Below are positions 51,415-63,497 of a stretch of DNA of 64,000 bases, one piece after another. The notes beneath the pieces were generated by a model. It was not told where the DNA came from and ran no database searches. It was given only the letters and a program-made list of their open reading frames with translations. The stretch is from positions 1 through 64,000 of the forward strand of contig JAHJRQ010000021.1 of NCBI GenBank assembly GCA_018830485.1. Direction: 5' to 3'. The position numbers and the translations under genes were made by a program. Numbering within the stretch: the first letter of the stretch is position 1; each line of letters begins with the position of its first letter. The stretch is from Pseudomonadota bacterium (GTDB lineage: Bacteria > Desulfobacterota > Desulfobulbia > Desulfobulbales > Desulfurivibrionaceae).

Positions 51415-52614
51415 TCAAGCACATACTGATTCTTGCAGGTGGACATTGTCCTGAACCCAATCGATTGATCGCACAAAATTCTTCACATATGCAACCCGCA
51501 AAGCAGTATCCTCGTCGATTTCCCCCTCCAGCCTGAAATTTTGCAAAAACGGCTCCAGCCGGCGGGCTGCAAGTTTCGCCGAGGCAAGGATCTCCAGCTT
51601 TACGAACTCACAATGCGCCACTGTCCGGATATCAACCGAATTGCATATTTCATGGTTGGCGCCGAGACAGGAATGACAGAGACGCCGCACCCCGCATCGG
51701 ACGCATTGTGACGGGCCCTTGATCTGCTTGTCAAATTCAATGTGCTGCGTTGGCGCGGAAGAACCGAGAGGGCTGAAACGATGGCAAGGATATTCTTTGC
51801 CGTCAGGCATGATTGCGGTCATGTACTTCCCTGCGCCGCAATATTTTTCTTCCAGGCCATACTCCTGCTCCGCGCAGAGTGTTTCAATCCGGTGCCCGAC
51901 CAATTTTGGCGCCGGCAATTCGGGATGGGCAACATAAAACGCCACAAGTTTGTCAAGCTCGCGGGCATAAACCCGAAGCAATCGGGACTTTTCTTCGGGC
52001 GTACCCCATATGTTTTCAAAAACGACATTCGCCTCCGGTTTTAAGCCCAGCTCATGGATATGCACAATGGAATCCGCCAGTCGAGGGATGGTAAACGGCG
52101 AAATGGTCATTTTAACCGTTTGGTCATATCTTCTGAAAAAATCGACATGCCGTACTACCCTGTCATAGGAGTTGGAGCGGTTATGGTCATGAACCTCTTT
52201 GGTCCCATCCAGGCTCAGACTCAACTGGAAACAGGGATGCCCCAAAAACCACTCCTTCATGGCTTCGGTCAAAACAGTGCCATTGGTCCCCAGAGACATC
52301 CTGTATCTTTTTTTCCACGTCCGCGAGTGACAATACTCAAAAACCTTTTTGATCAAGTCAAACTCAAGGAGCGGTTCTCCCCCGCAGAAATCAATGCTCA
52401 CCGTTGCTGGGCCTTCTTCGCGGTCCAGATATGTATCGATTGCCTGCCGGGCAACGTCGAAGCTCATCTTTTTCGGGCGCTTATTCGGTTCAAAACAGTA
52501 GATGCATCGAAGATTGCAATCTTCGGTTACCAGAAAGGTTAAATTAAACTCAATCTCATCGTTTCCACGATTCCGCCGGACAATCTCATTGATGACGCCA
52601 TATGCGTGTTCCAT
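51415..52614 (-). CDS. Radical SAM/SPASM enzyme, putative maturase of the CXXX-repeat peptide
   Basis: This 399-residue enzyme has the radical SAM cluster motif CNLRCIYCFEP near 33 and the later GGEP motif (FCGGEPLLEF) that contacts SAM. The C-terminal SPASM region has many Cys: CGAGKYMTAIMPDG, YPCHRF, then CVRCGVRRLCHSC, with EICNS and HCEF, enough for two auxiliary Fe-S clusters. SPASM enzymes commonly form thioether or carbon-carbon crosslinks in ribosomal peptides. The gene starts 10 bp after a Cys-repeat protein, its likely substrate. The ATG at 52614 has AGGGA upstream; the longer frame overlaps the repeat-coding DNA. Confidence 0.93.
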   Translation of the reverse strand: MEHAYGVINEIVRRNRGNDEIEFNLTFLVTEDCNLRCIYCFEPNKRPKKMSFDVARQAIDTYLDREEGPATVSIDFCGGEPLLEFDLIKKVFEYCHSRTWKKRYRMSLGTNGTVLTEAMKEWFLGHPCFQLSLSLDGTKEVHDHNRSNSYDRVVRHVDFFRRYDQTVKMTISPFTIPRLADSIVHIHELGLKPEANVVFENIWGTPEEKSRLLRVYARELDKLVAFYVAHPELPAPKLVGHRIETLCAEQEYGLEEKYCGAGKYMTAIMPDGKEYPCHRFSPLGSSAPTQHIEFDKQIKGPSQCVRCGVRRLCHSCLGANHEICNSVDIRTVAHCEFVKLEILASAKLAARRLEPFLQNFRLEGEIDEDTALRVAYVKNFVRSIDWVQDNVHLQESVCA

Positions 52615-52624
52615 GGTTCTGTCC

Positions 52625-53323
52625 CTACCGTCCAGCCTTGATCGGCCCAAGACATCCGCCGGTGCAGCCACCCATGCACGTTCCGGTGCAGCCCGTGCAC
52701 TGGTTCTGACACCCTCCCATGCATCCGCCGCCGCAACTGTTGAAACAGCCGTCTTTGCAACCACCCATACAGGCGCCGCCGCAACTGTTCAGACAGCCAC
52801 CGGAGCACCCGCCGTAGCATGAATCCTTGCACCCTCCCTTGCATCCGGAGCAGTCCCCGGGAATAGGCGGCACGGGAATGGGGATATTTCCCAGGCCCCG
52901 ATGCTCCAGAAAGGTATTTTCAAGCTGCGCCATGATGGAGGTAATACGCTTGCGATCACCGGCGCCCAGACGGAGTGTCTCTTCGGATGCGCTCCCCAAC
53001 CGGTCGATGAGGTACACAGCATCGTCGGAGCTCAATCCGGACGTTGCCTGTGTTCCGGACTTCGAACCTTGTATTTTCTTCTTGTTCTTCTCAATAACCG
53101 TATTGATTTTCTTGAGATCCTCTTCAAACGCTTTGTGGGCGATTCCCCATTCATCCTTGAGTTGTTCGCGTTTTTCAAGCAAATGGGCGATTTCCTCGTC
53201 CAGCAGATTCAATTTCGCCGCAATCATCTCGCTTTTTGTGCCCAGGGCGTGAAAAGCCTTCACCCCCATTTCCCGCTGCACAAAACATGAGTCCAACAAG
53301 CTCCCCTCATTTTTTTTCGCCAT
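52625..53323 (-). CDS. Cys-every-fourth-residue protein, putative RiPP precursor
   Basis: This 232-residue protein has no recognised family. Residues 1-155 are polar and helical with a coiled coil (about 30-85) and a short Pro-rich hinge ([11 protein letters not shown], 146-156). Residues 158-224 hold 18 Cys at 158, 161, then every fourth residue from 165 to 209, then 212, 216, 220, 224. Spacers are mostly Gly, Ser, Asn, Lys and Asp, and [12 protein letters not shown] recurs as [13 protein letters not shown] radical SAM/SPASM gene follows 10 bp later. The likeliest reading is a precursor with a long leader and a multiply modified core. A Cys-rich metal or redox protein is the alternative. A GGGGGG tract precedes the ATG. 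Confidence 0.85.
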
Positions 53324-53607
53324 TGCCGCCCCCCTGTAAGAATATTTTGTTAGGCTGAAAATATATTATTCCACTGAAATAATAAAAAATTATTCCGGCC
53401 CATGTCAAACAATACGTGCACTGGGTCACCATGCCCCTCGCCGGAGAAAAACATCGTCGACCCGGGGCAGCAAAAGAACGGAACCAGTTGACTCCCTGCC
53501 CCCTTTTTCCCTAGAGTAAGGAGAGCATCCGTTTTTTGCTTGCCAGCTTGCCTCTTTGGCTGGCCGCAAAGAATAACCCGCTCGAAAACCATCGAGGGAG
53601 AAAGCTC

Positions 53608-56061
53608 TTGCCGCGTCCCATCCCACCAAAAAACCATCTCAAGCAGTTCGAGGCCATCCGCCGGGAACTGAAAAAAACCGTTCTCGACCAGGACGATGCC
53701 ATCGACGAGGTGGTGGATGCCTTCATCCATATGGCCTTCCTCCCGCCCAAGGAAGCTCCGCCAAAGGCGATTTTCACCTTCCTCGGGGCACCGGGCGTGG
53801 GCAAGATCTATCTGGCCCGGGTGCTCTGCTCCATGCTCAAAGAGCATGGGGGGTTCAAACATTTTGATCTCGAACGGTACAGCGAAGCGGAAAACGCCGA
53901 CCAGCTCCTCGCCCCCCAGGTGGTGGGCGAGGAGATCAAGGAAGGCGAACTGATCCGCTTTCTCCGCGCAACCCCCCGCGCCATCATCCTCTTTGAATCC
54001 ATCGAAATGGCGAGCAATCAGTTGCAGATGGCGCTGCTCGACCTGATCAGCAAGGAGGATCCGGACAACGGCATCAACTGCCGGGAGGTCATCTTCATCT
54101 TCACCTCCACCCTGAGCAGCGTCCTTTACCAGAGCAAGGAGTTTCAGGCCGCCTTCCGGCGCAGCAAGGCCAGGGCCCAGGGGTTGATCATGGAGACAAT
54201 CGCCAAGGAAAAGAAGGTGGCAGGCGAGGTGATTCAGGAGGCGATCACCCCGAAGCTCCTCTCCACCCTGGCCCAGAACTATATCATCCTCTTCAACCGT
54301 TTGGGCATCAATGCCATGGTCCGCATTGGCACTGATTCCCTGCTGCAACTGGCCGGCCACTTCCGGCAAAAAGGCATTGAGCTTGAATTCCCGGAGCTTA
54401 CGGATCTGGTCACCCTACTGGTGCTCGCCCTGGGTCCGGCGATTACCGCCAAAAAGGTGAAGCAGAAGCTGCCCGACGAGGTGCTTTTCAAGATCACCCG
54501 GTTTCTGCGACATTTGCCAGCCGCACCGGCCCGAATTGCCTTCAAGGTAACGAAAAAGGCCGAGGCCTCGCTGCACAAGCTTTCGGAGGCAGGCGAACAG
54601 CTCCTGCCCCAGATATACAAGAACAACCAAACCGTGGAGCTGACCTGGAAGGAGTACCAGCTTGGAGAAAAACTCATCTTCAGCCTGGACAAGGCGGAAA
54701 CCCGCGCCCTGCCGGTCAGCAAGGGGTTGTTGCGCAGCGAACGACCGGCCGTCGAATTCTCCGAGATCGGCTTTGAAAATATTGCCGGCAACCGCCAGAC
54801 CAAAACCACCCTGAAGCAGATCATCACCACCCTGAAAAAACCCGAGCTGGTGAAAAAATTTTCCATCAGCATGCCCAAGGGCATGTTGCTCCATGGACCG
54901 CCGGGGGTGGGAAAAACCTTGCTGGGCAAAGCCTTTGCCCGGGAGGCCGGCCGGCCCTATATCCATGTTTCCCGCACCGAGCTGTTTGACTCGGAATACA
55001 TCCGCCTGGTCTATCTCAAAGCGCGGGAATACGCCCCCAGTATCGTTTTCCTGGACGGCATTGATGTCAAGGGCTTGATGGAAGGAGTGCTGACCAGCGT
55101 GCCTTCCGACCAAATCGCCCTTGAAATCGACGCCCTTTCCGACGACCCGGAGGAATCGGTGTTCACCGTGGTCACGGCGGTAAGCCGAGAGGAGGTGCCG
55201 CCGCTGCTCATCGAACCTGACCGCATCGACACCTTTGTCGAAGCGCCGGAGCTTGACCGGGAGGCGCGGCGCTTCTTCGTCGAGCAGATTTTGAAAAAGC
55301 CCAATAACGGCAAAATCGATGTGGACAAGGTGGTGCGCTACATCTCGGGAATGAACGGCTACGAATTGCAGCGCATCGGCAAGGAAGCCTCCCTTCACGC
55401 CATCCGCCACGGCCTGAAGTGCATCAGCGAAGAGATCCTCATCGAGCAGATCAACATCATCAAGTACGGCTCCAGGCTTGAAAAAACGCATATCCGCAAC
55501 CTGGAGGAAGACCTGCGCCTGACCGCCTTCCACGAGGCCGGGCATGCGGTGCTCTCCTGCCTGCTGCTGCCGAACACCAAAATCGAGCAGGTGACCATTG
55601 CCCCGCGCCTGCGGGTTCTGGGCTTTATTTCTTACAGCTTCGAGGATTTTCCCAGCAACCTCTCGAAAGAAGAGATGTTCAACAACATCTGCGTGCTCAT
55701 GGCCGGAAGAACGGCGAGCATGAAAAAATTCGGGGCCAAGGGCATGGACACCGGCGCGGCCGGCGATCTTGAGGAGGCGACGCACCAGGCCTACACCGCC
55801 ATCGCCAACCTGGGCATGGACGAGGAGTTGGGTTTCGTCCATGCCGACACCCTGAGCCGCAACGTGAACAAAGACTTTTTTCGGGAGGTGGTGGAGCGCC
55901 AGGTCCGCCTCTGGATCGATAAGGCCACGCGAAAGGCCGGGGAAATGGTGGAGGCCCACTGGCAGCAGATAGAGACCCTGGCAAACATCCTGATCCGACA
56001 GGAGATCGTCGATGGCGGGGAGCTTGAAAGGATCATGCAGAAGAAAATGGGCGCGAAGTAG
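53608..56061 (+). CDS. Soluble FtsH-like metalloprotease with two degenerate AAA modules
   Basis: An 817-residue protein with no membrane helix. Module 1 (about 15-300) resembles the ClpB second AAA domain, but Walker A is GAPGVGKIY (Ile67 for Thr/Ser) and Walker B is ILFESIE. Module 2 (about 385-600) resembles FtsH with intact Walker A GPPGVGKTLL near 435 but Walker B FLDGID (Gly for Glu) and no clear arginine finger in the VSREEVPPLLIEPDRID region. The M41 protease part is complete: HEAGH at 642-646 and Asp720 in GAAGDLEEAT. It may act as a weak or ATP-gated protease. TTG at 53608 is chosen for GAGGGAG 7 bp upstream; a TTG at 53536 adds 24 codons. It diverges from the RiPP-like pair. Confidence 0.85.
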   Translation: MPRPIPPKNHLKQFEAIRRELKKTVLDQDDAIDEVVDAFIHMAFLPPKEAPPKAIFTFLGAPGVGKIYLARVLCSMLKEHGGFKHFDLERYSEAENADQLLAPQVVGEEIKEGELIRFLRATPRAIILFESIEMASNQLQMALLDLISKEDPDNGINCREVIFIFTSTLSSVLYQSKEFQAAFRRSKARAQGLIMETIAKEKKVAGEVIQEAITPKLLSTLAQNYIILFNRLGINAMVRIGTDSLLQLAGHFRQKGIELEFPELTDLVTLLVLALGPAITAKKVKQKLPDEVLFKITRFLRHLPAAPARIAFKVTKKAEASLHKLSEAGEQLLPQIYKNNQTVELTWKEYQLGEKLIFSLDKAETRALPVSKGLLRSERPAVEFSEIGFENIAGNRQTKTTLKQIITTLKKPELVKKFSISMPKGMLLHGPPGVGKTLLGKAFAREAGRPYIHVSRTELFDSEYIRLVYLKAREYAPSIVFLDGIDVKGLMEGVLTSVPSDQIALEIDALSDDPEESVFTVVTAVSREEVPPLLIEPDRIDTFVEAPELDREARRFFVEQILKKPNNGKIDVDKVVRYISGMNGYELQRIGKEASLHAIRHGLKCISEEILIEQINIIKYGSRLEKTHIRNLEEDLRLTAFHEAGHAVLSCLLLPNTKIEQVTIAPRLRVLGFISYSFEDFPSNLSKEEMFNNICVLMAGRTASMKKFGAKGMDTGAAGDLEEATHQAYTAIANLGMDEELGFVHADTLSRNVNKDFFREVVERQVRLWIDKATRKAGEMVEAHWQQIETLANILIRQEIVDGGELERIMQKKMGAK

Positions 56062-56105: not shown

Positions 56106-57068
56106 ATGCACCGCATTCTTGTCACAGGCGCAACGGGTCAGATCGGTTCGGAACTGGTGCCCGCCTTGCGCGCACGGTATGGCGCGGCCAATGTCGTCGC
56201 CGCGGGCCACAAGAAAACCCCGATGCCGGAACTGCGCGAGGCCGGTCCCTATGCAACCCTGGACATCCTTGAGCGCGGTGCGCTTGCTGCCCTGGTCGAG
56301 CTGGAACGGATCGACACCATCTACCACCTGGCCGCCCTGCTCTCCGCCAAGGCCGAGACGGATCCCCAGCTCGCCTGGGAGATCAACATGGGCGGGCTGG
56401 TCAATGTGCTGGAGGTGGCCCGCCTCGGCAACTGCGCGGTCTTTCACCCCAGCTCCATCGGGGTCTTCGGCCCCTCCACCCCGCCCGACCGACCCCCCCA
56501 GGTGACCATCCAGCGCCCCAACACCATGTACGGGGTAACCAAGGTGAGCGGCGAGCTGCTCTGCGACTACTATCACCGCCGTTACGGCCTGGACACCAGG
56601 GGCATCCGCTTTCCCGGCCTTATCTCCCACAAAACCGCGCCCGGCGGCGGCACCACCGATTATGCGGTGGAGATCTTTTCCGCCGCCATCAAGTACAAGC
56701 AATACACCTGCTTCCTGCGGCCGGGAACCTCATTGGACATGATGTACATGCCAGACGCCATCCGGGCGGCCATGGAGATCATGGAGGCCAAACCGGAAAA
56801 GCTCCACCATCGCAACGCCTACAACCTTACGGCCATGAGCTTTGCCCCGGAAAAGCTGGCTGCGGAAATCGCCCGTCACATCCCGGACTTTATTATGCTT
56901 TATCAGCCGGACCCGATCCGCCAGGCCATTGCCGACTCCTGGCCCAACAGCCTGGACGACAGCGCCGCCCGTGCGGACTGGGGCTGGCAGCCGCGATACA
57001 CCCTTGCCGAAATGACCAGGGAAATGCTGGCCGCCCTCTCCGGTTCAGGAGCCAGCCATGAGCCTTGA
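56106..57068 (+). CDS. L-threonine 3-dehydrogenase, NAD-dependent epimerase type
   Basis: This 320-residue short-chain dehydrogenase has the Rossmann motif GATGQIGSELVPAL at the N-terminus and the YGVTKVSGELL catalytic Tyr/Lys. The sequence (RGIRFPGLISHKTAPGGGTTDYAVEIF) matches UDP-galactose-4-epimerase-like threonine dehydrogenases, which oxidise threonine to 2-amino-3-ketobutyrate. The next gene, overlapping by 11 bp, encodes the CoA ligase that uses this product, which supports the call. Confidence 0.92.
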   Translation: MHRILVTGATGQIGSELVPALRARYGAANVVAAGHKKTPMPELREAGPYATLDILERGALAALVELERIDTIYHLAALLSAKAETDPQLAWEINMGGLVNVLEVARLGNCAVFHPSSIGVFGPSTPPDRPPQVTIQRPNTMYGVTKVSGELLCDYYHRRYGLDTRGIRFPGLISHKTAPGGGTTDYAVEIFSAAIKYKQYTCFLRPGTSLDMMYMPDAIRAAMEIMEAKPEKLHHRNAYNLTAMSFAPEKLAAEIARHIPDFIMLYQPDPIRQAIADSWPNSLDDSAARADWGWQPRYTLAEMTREMLAALSGSGASHEP

Positions 57069-58317
57069 CAAGATTCGCCCGCTATTCACCGCCACCCTTG
57101 CCACCCTGGATAAGCAGGCTACCCGCAAGGGCAGCGAGCGGGTGCTCGTTGCCATCATCCCGGCACAATCGGGCTTGGGCCCCCGCTGCCTCCTGGCCGG
57201 TTATGGAGAGCGGGCGTTTCTGCGGATGAACTCCAACTCCTACCTGGGGCTCTCCCAGCACCCGGCAGTACTTTGGGCGGCGGAGGAGGCGGCACGGCGT
57301 TTCGGCGCAGGCCCCGGGGCGGTGCGCTTTATCAGCGGCACCTGCCTGGCGCACACGGAACTGGAAGAAAAGCTGGCTCGCTTCCACGGCCGCGGGGCAG
57401 GGATGCTCATGAGCTCCGCCTATGCCACGGTGATGGGGGCGCTGCCCCGGCTGGTCACGGAAGAAACCGTGGTTATCAGCGATGCGTTGAACCACAACTG
57501 CATCATCAATGGTATCCGCTTGGCGCAGCCCGCTGCCAAGGCGATATACCGCCATCTGGACCTGGAGGATCTTGCGGCACGGCTGGAGGAATTCCGGGGG
57601 AAGGCAAGACGGGCTGTGGTGGTTACCGACGGGGTCTTCAGCATGCGGGGCGACCACGCGCCGCTGGCCGATTTGAGCGCGCTCTGCTCCCGTTTTGAAA
57701 ACGATTTTCCCGAGGGGGTCATCACCATGGCCGACGACTCCCACGGTGTCGGCGCCTTTGGCCAAAGCGGCCGGGGCACCGAGGAGCACACCCATGGCCG
57801 GGTGGATGTCCTGATCGGCACTCTGGGCAAGGGTTTCGGCGTCAACGGCGGCTATGTGGTGGGGGATGCGCTCTTCATCGACTACCTGCGGGAAACCACG
57901 CCCTTCTATATCTACTCAAACCCCATCACCCCGGCGGAGGCCGCAGCAGCAGGCAAGGCGCTGGACATCGTCGACAGCGGCGAAGGTTCGCTCCTGCTTA
58001 AAAAATTGCGTACCCTCAGAACATTTCTTGCCGACGGCCTACACGCCTTGGGCTACGAGAGCATTGCCGGGGCCCACCCCATTGTGCCGCTCCTGGTCCG
58101 CGACACCGCCAAGACCGCGAGCCTGGCGGCACACCTCTTCAACCACGGCATCCTTGCCACCGGCCTCAACTACCCGGTGGTTCCCAAGGGCGACGAAGAG
58201 ATCCGTTTCCAGCTCAACGCCGGCCACACCCAACAGGATATCGAGTTTCTCCTGAAGGCGCTGCAATCCTTCCGCGAGCACACAGAACCCAAGGACAAAA
58301 TCCCGCTCACCCCTTGA
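57058..58317 (+). CDS. kbl: 2-amino-3-ketobutyrate CoA ligase (glycine C-acetyltransferase) or related alpha-oxoamine synthase
   Basis: This 419-residue PLP enzyme of the alpha-oxoamine synthase family splits 2-amino-3-ketobutyrate with CoA into glycine and acetyl-CoA. Motifs: NSNSYLGLSQHPAVL near 57, GTCLAHTELEEKLARF, DDSHGVGAFGQSGRGT near 225 and the PLP lysine in IGTLGKGFGVNGGY near 258. 8-amino-7-oxononanoate synthase is similar, but the upstream threonine dehydrogenase favours threonine catabolism. Its end overlaps that of convergent rtcB by 11 bp. Confidence 0.9.
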   Translation: MSLDKIRPLFTATLATLDKQATRKGSERVLVAIIPAQSGLGPRCLLAGYGERAFLRMNSNSYLGLSQHPAVLWAAEEAARRFGAGPGAVRFISGTCLAHTELEEKLARFHGRGAGMLMSSAYATVMGALPRLVTEETVVISDALNHNCIINGIRLAQPAAKAIYRHLDLEDLAARLEEFRGKARRAVVVTDGVFSMRGDHAPLADLSALCSRFENDFPEGVITMADDSHGVGAFGQSGRGTEEHTHGRVDVLIGTLGKGFGVNGGYVVGDALFIDYLRETTPFYIYSNPITPAEAAAAGKALDIVDSGEGSLLLKKLRTLRTFLADGLHALGYESIAGAHPIVPLLVRDTAKTASLAAHLFNHGILATGLNYPVVPKGDEEIRFQLNAGHTQQDIEFLLKALQSFREHTEPKDKIPLTP

Positions 58318-60104: not shown

Positions 60105-60563
60105 ATGCTCGACCAGGATGAACAATCCCTGCATTCTCGGTTCACCGATTTTGAAAAATTCTGCCGGAAAAAGGGTCTTAAAATGACCCACCAGCGGCTG
60201 GAAATCTATCGCGAATTGCTCACTTCCAGCGATCACCCCACCGTTGAAGCTCTTTTCCTGCGAGTGCGGAAACGCATCCCCACCATCTCTCTGGATACCG
60301 TCTACCGGACCCTTGCCTTGCTGGAAGAAGCCGGAATGACCAACCGCATCCAAACCTCAGAAGGGCTCACCCGGTTTGAATCGGACTACGGCGTCCACCA
60401 CCATCTGACCTGCAAAAAATGCCAGAAAATCGAGGACTTCATATGGGAATCCTTTGACACTATGCTCCTGCCCCCGGAATTGGAAGCATGGGGCACTATC
60501 CAGACGCGGAATATCGTGGCCGAAGGAATCTGCAAAGATTGCCTCAAAAAAGAAAAAAAATAA
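60105..60563 (+). CDS. Fur-family peroxide-type regulator (PerR-like)
   Basis: This 152-residue Fur-family repressor has a winged-helix N-terminus (KKGLKMTHQRLEIYRELL and VYRTLALLEEAGM) and a dimerisation domain with HHHLTCKKCQKI and a second CxxC in ICKDCLKK, the structural zinc site of PerR/Zur/Fur. Genes for rubrerythrin and catalase-peroxidase follow immediately, so a peroxide-sensing PerR role is inferred. A 7-1-7 palindrome of PerR-box shape lies between it and the first rubrerythrin. Confidence 0.9.
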   Translation: MLDQDEQSLHSRFTDFEKFCRKKGLKMTHQRLEIYRELLTSSDHPTVEALFLRVRKRIPTISLDTVYRTLALLEEAGMTNRIQTSEGLTRFESDYGVHHHLTCKKCQKIEDFIWESFDTMLLPPELEAWGTIQTRNIVAEGICKDCLKKEKK

Positions 60564-60589
60564 TAAAGTGATTTTTTTGTTGCCTTTAA

Positions 60590-60604
60590 TAAGAATAATT
60601 CTTA
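60590..60604. promoter_or_regulatory. PerR-box-like operator (7-1-7 palindrome)
   Basis: TAAGAATAATTCTTA is a perfect 7-1-7 inverted repeat, the geometry of PerR/Fur boxes (TTATAATNATTATAA in Bacillus). It lies 50 bp upstream of the rubrerythrin -35 element, directly after the gene for a PerR-like protein. Confidence 0.6.
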
Positions 60605-60653
60605 AATAGTATTATAACATAACAATTCCCTTCAAGGCTTGCTTTCCTTGGAA

Positions 60654-60681
60654 TTGATAAGGTAGTAACTCTGTTTATAAT
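60654..60681 (+). promoter_or_regulatory. Sigma-70-type promoter of the rubrerythrin-katG unit
   Basis: TTGATA (60654-60659), 16-bp spacer, perfect TATAAT (60676-60681). The -10 region continues as TTATAATTAATAGG, itself resembling half of a PerR box, so repressor binding could overlap the polymerase site. Start codon is about 30 nt beyond the expected start point. Confidence 0.7.
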
Positions 60682-60716
60682 TAATAGGTAACTCCAGTGT
60701 ACCAAGAGAGGCGCAG

Positions 60717-61211
60717 ATGAACAAGACGATGAAAAATCTCAAGGAGGCGTTTGCCGGAGAGTCCATGGCAAACCGGAAGTATCTGGCCTTTGCCCGACAG
60801 GCGGAAAAAGAGGGGCACTCCCAGGTTGCCAGGCTTTTCCGCGCGGCGGCTGAGGCGGAGACAATCCATGCCCACAACCACCTGCGGGCCATGGGCGGCA
60901 TCAAGAGCACGGCGGAAAATCTTAAGGAAGCCATTGCCGGCGAGGAGTACGAATTCACCGACATGTATCCGCCCATGATTGAGGATGCCAAGGCAGAGGG
61001 CAATAAGGCAGCCGAGCAGGTGCTTTCCTATGCCAATGCTGTGGAGAAAACCCACGGAGCACTGTACCGGAAGGCCCTGGAAAACCTCGGGTCCCTCGCG
61101 GAGGTGGACTACCATGTCTGCTCTGTCTGCGGCCATACCTGCGAAAACGAGCCGCCGGAAAAGTGCCCCGTCTGCGGGGCACTTGCCAATGCCTTTTTCA
61201 AGGTCGACTGA
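60717..61211 (+). CDS. Rubrerythrin
   Basis: This 164-residue non-haem di-iron protein reduces hydrogen peroxide in anaerobes. The N-terminal ferritin-like four-helix domain supplies diiron ligands (EAFAGESMANRKYLAF, EAETIHAHNHLR, EEYEFTDMYPPM). The C-terminal rubredoxin-like domain has CSVCGHTC and CPVCGAL for the Fe(Cys)4 centre. It is shorter than classic rubrerythrin (about 190) but complete. It lies under a promoter and a PerR-like box. Confidence 0.95.
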   Translation: MNKTMKNLKEAFAGESMANRKYLAFARQAEKEGHSQVARLFRAAAEAETIHAHNHLRAMGGIKSTAENLKEAIAGEEYEFTDMYPPMIEDAKAEGNKAAEQVLSYANAVEKTHGALYRKALENLGSLAEVDYHVCSVCGHTCENEPPEKCPVCGALANAFFKVD

Positions 61212-61274
61212 GCCTGACATCTGGTCATGCACAAAAATCCCAGCCAAGCCGTGCAACACCTTTGTTAGCTGTGA

Positions 61275-63497
<2,223 letters not shown>

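Follow-up and report, generated by a model that had tools for sequence, protein, structure and literature searches.

A soluble protein that joins ClpB-D2-like and FtsH-like AAA modules to an M41 domain: a candidate motorless relative of FtsH

Introduction

M41 proteases have been presented in reviews as membrane-anchored enzymes that are driven by ATP and contain one AAA ring (PMC9020784, PMC8943139, PMC7226402). FtsH hexamers thread their substrate into the M41 chamber by an ATP-driven movement of the FVG loop, the phenylalanine of which binds the substrate (PMC9020784). LonC of Meiothermus has no ATPase activity, holds six nucleotides per hexamer and acts on unfolded substrates only (PMC3391209). 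Two further systems come close to the locus described here, namely the plastid FtsHi proteins and the Ycf2-FtsHi motor (PMC9020784, PMC8197885; PDB 8xku), in which one of the two FtsH activities has been lost, and the FtsH-ClpK heat-resistance loci of enterobacterial plasmids, in which Hsp100-type and FtsH-type proteins are encoded side by side.

In this study, we describe a protein encoded in the window, by which we mean the whole stretch of 64,000 nucleotides that was analysed. Like FtsH, it carries an FtsH-type AAA module directly before an M41 domain with an HEXXH motif and a third aspartate, and the fold matches at a Z score of 23; unlike FtsH, it is without a membrane helix, contains an extra ClpB-D2-like module and lacks pore loop 1, the Walker-B glutamate, sensor 1 and the second arginine finger. 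The extra module (module 1) resembles ClpB and other Hsp100 proteins, and also Skd3/CLPB, in that it aligns to both the large and the small D2 subdomain; however, it is the only Hsp100-type module of the chain, D1 and the coiled-coil middle domain are missing, its Walker A and B motifs are degenerate, its loop aromatics are gone and it is covalently joined to an M41 domain. With LonC the protein shares the form of a single-chain AAA+ protease in which the ATPase module is degenerate and the protease site intact, although LonC is a Lon serine-lysine protease with a non-homologous protease domain and the activity of the M41 protein is predicted only. As in FtsHi, one of two FtsH activities appears to be lost, but FtsHi lost the zinc protease and the window protein the ATPase residues, and what the FtsH-ClpK loci encode in separate genes is here a single chain. 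The parts belong to known families; their combination, whether as a ClpB-FtsH fusion or as a soluble double-AAA M41 family, was not found described in the openly licensed literature that we searched, and neither was loss of the motor in M41 proteases.

Results

Two AAA modules and an M41 domain in one chain

An earlier note on this DNA, made from the sequence alone, had described a soluble single chain that joins a ClpB-D2-like part to an M41 protease and thereby departs from textbook FtsH, which is membrane-anchored and has a single active AAA domain. This description held up: the domain search and structure prediction that the note suggested recovered the ClpB-D2-like, the FtsH-like AAA and the M41 parts alike.

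53608..56061, + strand: AAA(ClpB-D2-like)-AAA(FtsH-like)-M41 protein, 817 aa, TTG start (open ORF, Pfam)
53656..54207, + strand: module 1, ClpB-D2-like large AAA+ subdomain, about residues 17-200 (Pfam AAA_2; 4fcw_C alignment)
54208..54627, + strand: module 1, small subdomain, with sensor-2-like GAR changed to TAK (ClpB-D2 match reaches residue 354)
54628..54747, + strand: beta-rich linker between the modules, about residues 341-380 (AlphaFold model secondary structure)
54748..55467, + strand: module 2, FtsH-like AAA domain, about residues 381-620 (Pfam AAA; Z 23.5 to 1iy2)
55501..56040, + strand: M41 zinc metalloprotease domain (Pfam PF01434, 108.7 bits against a cut-off of 29.9)

Pfam placed AAA_2 at residues 52-196, AAA at 426-547 and Peptidase_M41 at 634-809, each above its cut-off, and the FtsH equivalog model TIGR01241 (NCBIfam) gave 208 bits, which is below its cut-off of 600. 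The maximum 19-residue hydropathy of the window protein is 1.58. Two canonical FtsHs encoded by the same genome reach 2.0-2.3, and since the window protein falls under both of these no membrane helix is seen in it. An AlphaFold2 model, for which 23 family members served as input, had a mean pLDDT of 81 and a pTM of 0.55. Residues 7-354 of this model matched ClpB D2 (4fcw_C) with a Z score of 22.2 and an rmsd of 3.9, 297 residues being aligned of 306, and a Z score of 22.2 was also obtained for module 1 with 7ttr_A, human Skd3, which is aligned by model residues 5-318. FtsH (2ce7_B) matched model residues 380-814 at Z 23.2, and the AAA part alone matched the FtsH ATPase domain 1iy2 at Z 23.5. 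When the model was used as a Foldseek query, FtsH chains were top-ranked, and Ycf2-FtsHi plastid complexes were also among the matches. According to the model, the chain begins with an Hsp100-D2-type module, which a beta-rich linker connects to the FtsH-type AAA module, and ends with the M41 domain.

Loss of ATPase residues and retention of the zinc site

Motif counts were obtained by comparing 100 family members, 70 of which are full length and some of which are near-identical.

53785..53808, + strand: module 1 Walker A, GAPGVGKI, Lys66 kept, Thr/Ser changed to Ile (family alignment)
53986..54006, + strand: module 1 Walker B, ILFESIE, Asp changed to Glu and catalytic Glu to Ser (family alignment)
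54895..54918, + strand: module 2 Walker A, GPPGVGKT, intact (family alignment)
54988..54993, + strand: site of six deleted residues (MFVGVG, FtsH pore loop 1) between D461 and S462 (alignment gap)
55048..55065, + strand: module 2 Walker B, FLDGID, catalytic Glu changed to Gly (family alignment)
55213..55233, + strand: second region of homology, EPDRIDT, with the first Arg finger (R539) but not the second (family alignment)
55531..55545, + strand: HEAGH zinc site, H642, E643 and H646 (family alignment)
55765..55767, + strand: third zinc ligand, D720 (family alignment)

The isoleucine that the earlier note had read in place of Thr/Ser in the Walker A motif of module 1 (GAPGVGKI) was confirmed, as was the absence of an Asp-Glu pair from both Walker B motifs (module 1, FESIE; module 2, FLDGID). 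Among the full-length members, the Walker-A lysine of module 1 is present in 70/70 and is followed by T or S in 13/70, and the catalytic glutamate of its Walker B motif is retained in just 5/70. The sensor-2 region of the window protein reads ITAKKVK, compared with LDARRVK in the relative L050, and the module-1 loop, which carries aromatics in intact members (ARFWG, SAGYKN, DFKYSK), is APQVVG in the window protein, without aromatics.

Module 2 has undergone losses beyond those noted earlier, in that pore loop 1 is deleted and both the sensor-1 asparagine and the second arginine finger are gone. The gap of six residues, which takes in the substrate-gripping FVG, is found in all 100 members; all four canonical FtsHs encoded in the source genome have M[FY]VG[VL]G there. 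The Walker-B glutamate is retained in only 12 of the 100 members, and its position is occupied by Gly, Asp, Ser or Asn depending on the clade, no acidic residue replacing it consistently; Arcobacter-type members have the Asp-Glu pair in the reverse order, Glu-Asp. The sensor-1 asparagine is missing from all but about ten of the 100, and the position of the second arginine finger is never Arg. Lys436 of Walker A is unchanged in 100/100 members, and at position R539 an Arg is found in 71 members and a Lys in 28. As had been observed before, the zinc site is intact, with D720 as the third ligand: the HEXXH residues are conserved in 98/100 (H), 100/100 (E) and 99/100 (H) members, and the third-ligand Asp in 99/99 members having the position.

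The retained residues could mean that the ATPase is still slowly active by way of non-canonical residues and that the protein works as a slow powered unfoldase-protease. The invariant Walker-A lysine, the Arg or Lys at the first arginine finger in 99/100 members, the slow evolution of module 2 (see below) and the twelve relatives with a Walker-B glutamate all favour this explanation. We nevertheless consider it unlikely, as module 2 has none of the Walker-B glutamate, sensor-1 asparagine, second arginine finger and pore loop 1, module 1 is without Thr/Ser, the Asp-Glu pair, sensor 2 and the loop aromatics, and no one acid has taken over at the Walker-B position.

Start, promoter and neighbouring genes

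The first possible start of the protease ORF is an in-frame TTG at 53536. We favour TTG 53608, which has GGGAG upstream of it, as the likely start of the gene, because five relatives have both this TTG and the ribosome site.

53488..53517, + strand: promoter-like TTGACT-18-TAGAGT of the protease gene (consensus match only)
52625..53323, - strand: Cys-repeat protein, divergent neighbour, judged to be outside the system (present in the window, L009 and L023 only)
51415..52614, - strand: radical SAM peptide maturase, divergent neighbour, judged to be outside the system (Pfam, NCBIfam)

The -10-like part of the promoter-like site is kept in five relatives in the alignment, and TTGAC is kept in those relatives whose aligned stretch extends there, including L010, L012 and L013. 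These three have no radical-SAM pair and yet keep the site; a phosphoesterase gene lies directly upstream of their protease gene instead. A separate promoter-like sequence, TTGACA-18-TATTAT, is located on the opposite side of the divergent region and points away from the protease. The earlier note had suggested that the protease gene and the Cys-repeat/radical-SAM pair are co-regulated across a shared gap of 285 bp. The gap, 284 bp by our count, agrees to within one base; the proposed co-regulation does not stand, since each divergent side has its own promoter-like site and the one on the protease side is kept where the pair is missing.

The same note had raised the possibility of leader removal or quality control, which would give the protease a dedicated role in serving the Cys-repeat peptide and the radical SAM enzyme that belongs to it. 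The divergent adjacency is indeed common to L009 and L023. However, these are orthologues of 93-94% identity and the only ones among about 70 loci in which the pair adjoins the protease; the neighbourhood survey that had been called for found about 65 other loci without it, which speaks essentially against any coupling. The Cys-repeat protein occurs in 1/395 genomes of the phylum, the window's own, and is missing from the other 394, compared with 7/395 for the protease, and the protease is found without the pair with its promoter conserved there. We hold a dedicated role of this kind to be highly improbable, and a function as the RiPP leader protease of the pair was rejected because conserved co-occurrence with precursor and maturase was not found.

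As to the pair itself, the radical SAM ORF as listed from GTG 52764 (51415-52764) overlaps the Cys-repeat ORF by 140 bp; an alternative start, ATG 52614 (MEHAYGVINE), lies right after the Cys-repeat stop and is the likelier one, giving an ordinary two-gene operon. The maturase reaches 173 bits with TIGR04115, under the cut-off of 350. The Cys-repeat protein contains many closely spaced Cys-Gly units, has a weak TIGR04117 match and possibly represents a narrow RiPP system. On the other side, genes for an SDR epimerase-like protein and a Kbl-like acyltransferase (56106-58317) begin 44 bp after the protease gene. Elsewhere these two genes follow the protease only in L013 and L025, with the epimerase alone also doing so in L010; they do not in L009 or L023. 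A likely peroxide-stress cluster occupies 60105-63497 on the + strand, where genes for a Fur-type regulator, a rubrerythrin-like protein and a KatG catalase-peroxidase are grouped.

Clustering of flanking ORFs gave no neighbour common to different clades, and the protease gene is best regarded as an independent unit. These findings also bear on another explanation, according to which the AAA modules would serve as an ATP/ADP sensor and the protein would be a nucleotide-gated regulatory or site-specific protease that cleaves a particular regulator. Two nucleotide sites with an invariant Lys and an Arg/Lys finger, together with the gene's own conserved promoter, would fit such a role; it seems improbable to us, as there is no conserved neighbour that could be the candidate substrate and the sequence points to none in particular.

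Distribution and selection

The family was scanned for in one genome per species across 84,980 species, the scan being seeded with six short peptides from one sequence. This yielded 71 loci, nearly all from Desulfobulbales-type deltaproteobacteria and Campylobacterota, and other phyla may hold relatives. By whole-genome search the protease is present in 7/395 genomes of the window's phylum and in 31/298 genomes of Sulfurovum's phylum, so its distribution is patchy; four genomes sampled from the window's family group are without it. The source genome (a 2.9-Mb assembly in 26 contigs with 98% estimated completeness) contains four canonical FtsH genes and ClpA/ClpB-type proteins, and a second member of the protease family was not found in it. 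Each of 20 Campylobacterota genomes checked has one family member, so the protein usually has no powered paralogue within its family. With regard to mobile elements, no plasmid or phage record covered 80% of the protein. Pseudomonas jumbo phages, for example PA5oct (records H21-H25), have about 425 codons that match the FtsH-like AAA and M41 half only.

Pairwise dN/dS between the window protein and seven relatives was 0.10-0.17 overall, 0.05-0.11 for module 2, the slowest-evolving part, and 0.09-0.21 for the large subdomain of module 1. By this measure the degenerate modules are evolving under purifying selection. An assembly error was rejected as the source of the degeneracy, which relatives at 55-94% identity share and which is accompanied by the low overall dN/dS. 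In MAG contigs L023, L038, L039 and L048 the protease gene is broken into fragments, either by sequencing error or through local decay. These fragments and the degenerate ATPase motifs could be taken as signs of a decaying gene without function. Pseudogene decay is contradicted by the selection data, and with zinc ligands conserved at 98-100%, full-length ORFs in dozens of genomes and a promoter and start conserved in six genomes we give it hardly any credence.

History of the motor and complementary relatives

A tree was built on module 2 and the M41 domain, with the scored motif columns excluded. All catalytic residues, those of both ATPase sites and HEAGH, are retained in L050, L114, L115 and L119; L114, L119 and L050 lie near the tree base, the join of L114 to the outgroup being a long-branch case. 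By eye, a Clp N-terminal domain was suspected in the intact relatives; Pfam at E 0.001 gave none. Module 1 was probably the first to decay, because L086, L103, L106 and L109-L111 retain the module-2 glutamate and have a degenerate module 1. In the clade of the window protein the glutamate motif has become LDGID; LEDID is found in members of the Arcobacter/Sulfurimonas type and in a short Sulfurovaceae form, and LEGVD, LESVD or LDNVD in other clades. Parsimony on this residue requires a minimum of three changes, or four when only losses are allowed, a count that is provisional because the deeper forks between clades are partly weak (85/49, 70/91, 57/56). The same loss of the motor seems to have occurred repeatedly among related bacteria. 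That the family descends from a machine with two powered modules, whose catalytic residues are all still present in a few Campylobacterota, belongs to the best explanation as a whole and, like the whole, is evenly poised in our judgement.

An inverse clade exists in the Sulfurovaceae, where in six genomes FIDEID is retained and HEXXH has become YEAGR, YEAGH, REAAH or KEAAH. A Sulfurovaceae clade (L130-L133) retains FIDEID and has the first zinc histidine changed to Arg or Lys; judged by these motifs, its members would be bacterial ATPase-intact, protease-dead M41 relatives, like plant FtsHi. The short form, of about 450 aa, was considered as half of a split gene and rejected as such, there being no adjoining module-1 partner. 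Sulfurovum sp. AR (L054/G395; L091, L092) has two complementary relatives in one genome: the long one has an intact module-2 ATPase but a dead protease (YEAGR), and the short one combines HEAAH with a degenerate ATPase.

Such complementary relatives lend some support to the idea that the window protein is the protease-competent subunit of a mixed complex, the motor of which would be supplied by one of the cell's own canonical FtsH or Clp proteins. The source genome encodes four canonical FtsHs and Clp proteins, and plant FtsHi pseudo-proteases act in mixed complexes (PMC9020784). However, the canonical FtsHs are membrane-anchored and the window protein is not, long and short forms occur together in only 1/120 Sulfurovaceae genomes, with no second case, each of the 20 genomes checked has a single family member, and no neighbouring gene is conserved across the family's loci. 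We therefore regard a borrowed motor as rather unlikely. An obligate heteromer of complementary paralogues was rejected, as it could apply to that one Sulfurovum genome and to none other among the 120 of its family.

Discussion

By strict membership the window protein is not FtsH, because the membrane anchor, the Walker B motif and the pore loop of FtsH were each looked for and are absent or altered; it may instead be an M41 relative that works like LonC. Our preferred explanation is that the protein is a soluble, ring-forming FtsH-type zinc protease without an ATP motor, a proposal that we find about as easy to believe as to doubt. Powered threading is unlikely, since both modules are without the catalytic glutamate and the pore loop is absent. 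The Walker-A lysines and the arginine finger are retained, and from this we infer that nucleotide is still bound. An ATP-independent barrel is proposed on the model of LonC, which represents a motorless, nucleotide-bound state.

According to this scheme, six copies of the protein would assemble into a barrel of three layers, in the manner of FtsH and ClpB modules. Nucleotide would be bound and not hydrolysed, its main role presumably being to stabilize the ring. Chains that are already unfolded, or peptides, may diffuse into the chamber, where they would be cut at the HEAGH zinc site, and damaged proteins and peptides could in this way be cleared without ATP cost. Canonical FtsH ATPase mutants generally lose proteolysis, and we know of no direct precedent for an ATP-independent M41 ring. 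Also counted against a motorless protein are the Arcobacter-type Glu-Asp swap, which is something other than a simple loss, and the pTM of only 0.55 for a model built from 23 sequences. In addition, the low dN/dS of module 2 and the retained arginine finger could be signs of a little remaining hydrolysis or of a surviving allosteric nucleotide switch.

For the family, a wider proposal follows the same lines: that the motor was lost independently about four times with the zinc protease kept, which would make this the first motorless M41 protease, and that a sister clade lost the protease and kept the motor residues. We judge this to fall slightly short of evenly balanced. The relatives, which range from all-intact to protease-only to ATPase-only, form a natural series in which the contribution of the motor can be tested, and the same series bears on whether an M41 chamber can work without a motor and on how AAA+ machines lose their power stroke. 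If the proposal is true, the precedent set by LonC would be extended to a second, unrelated class of protease.
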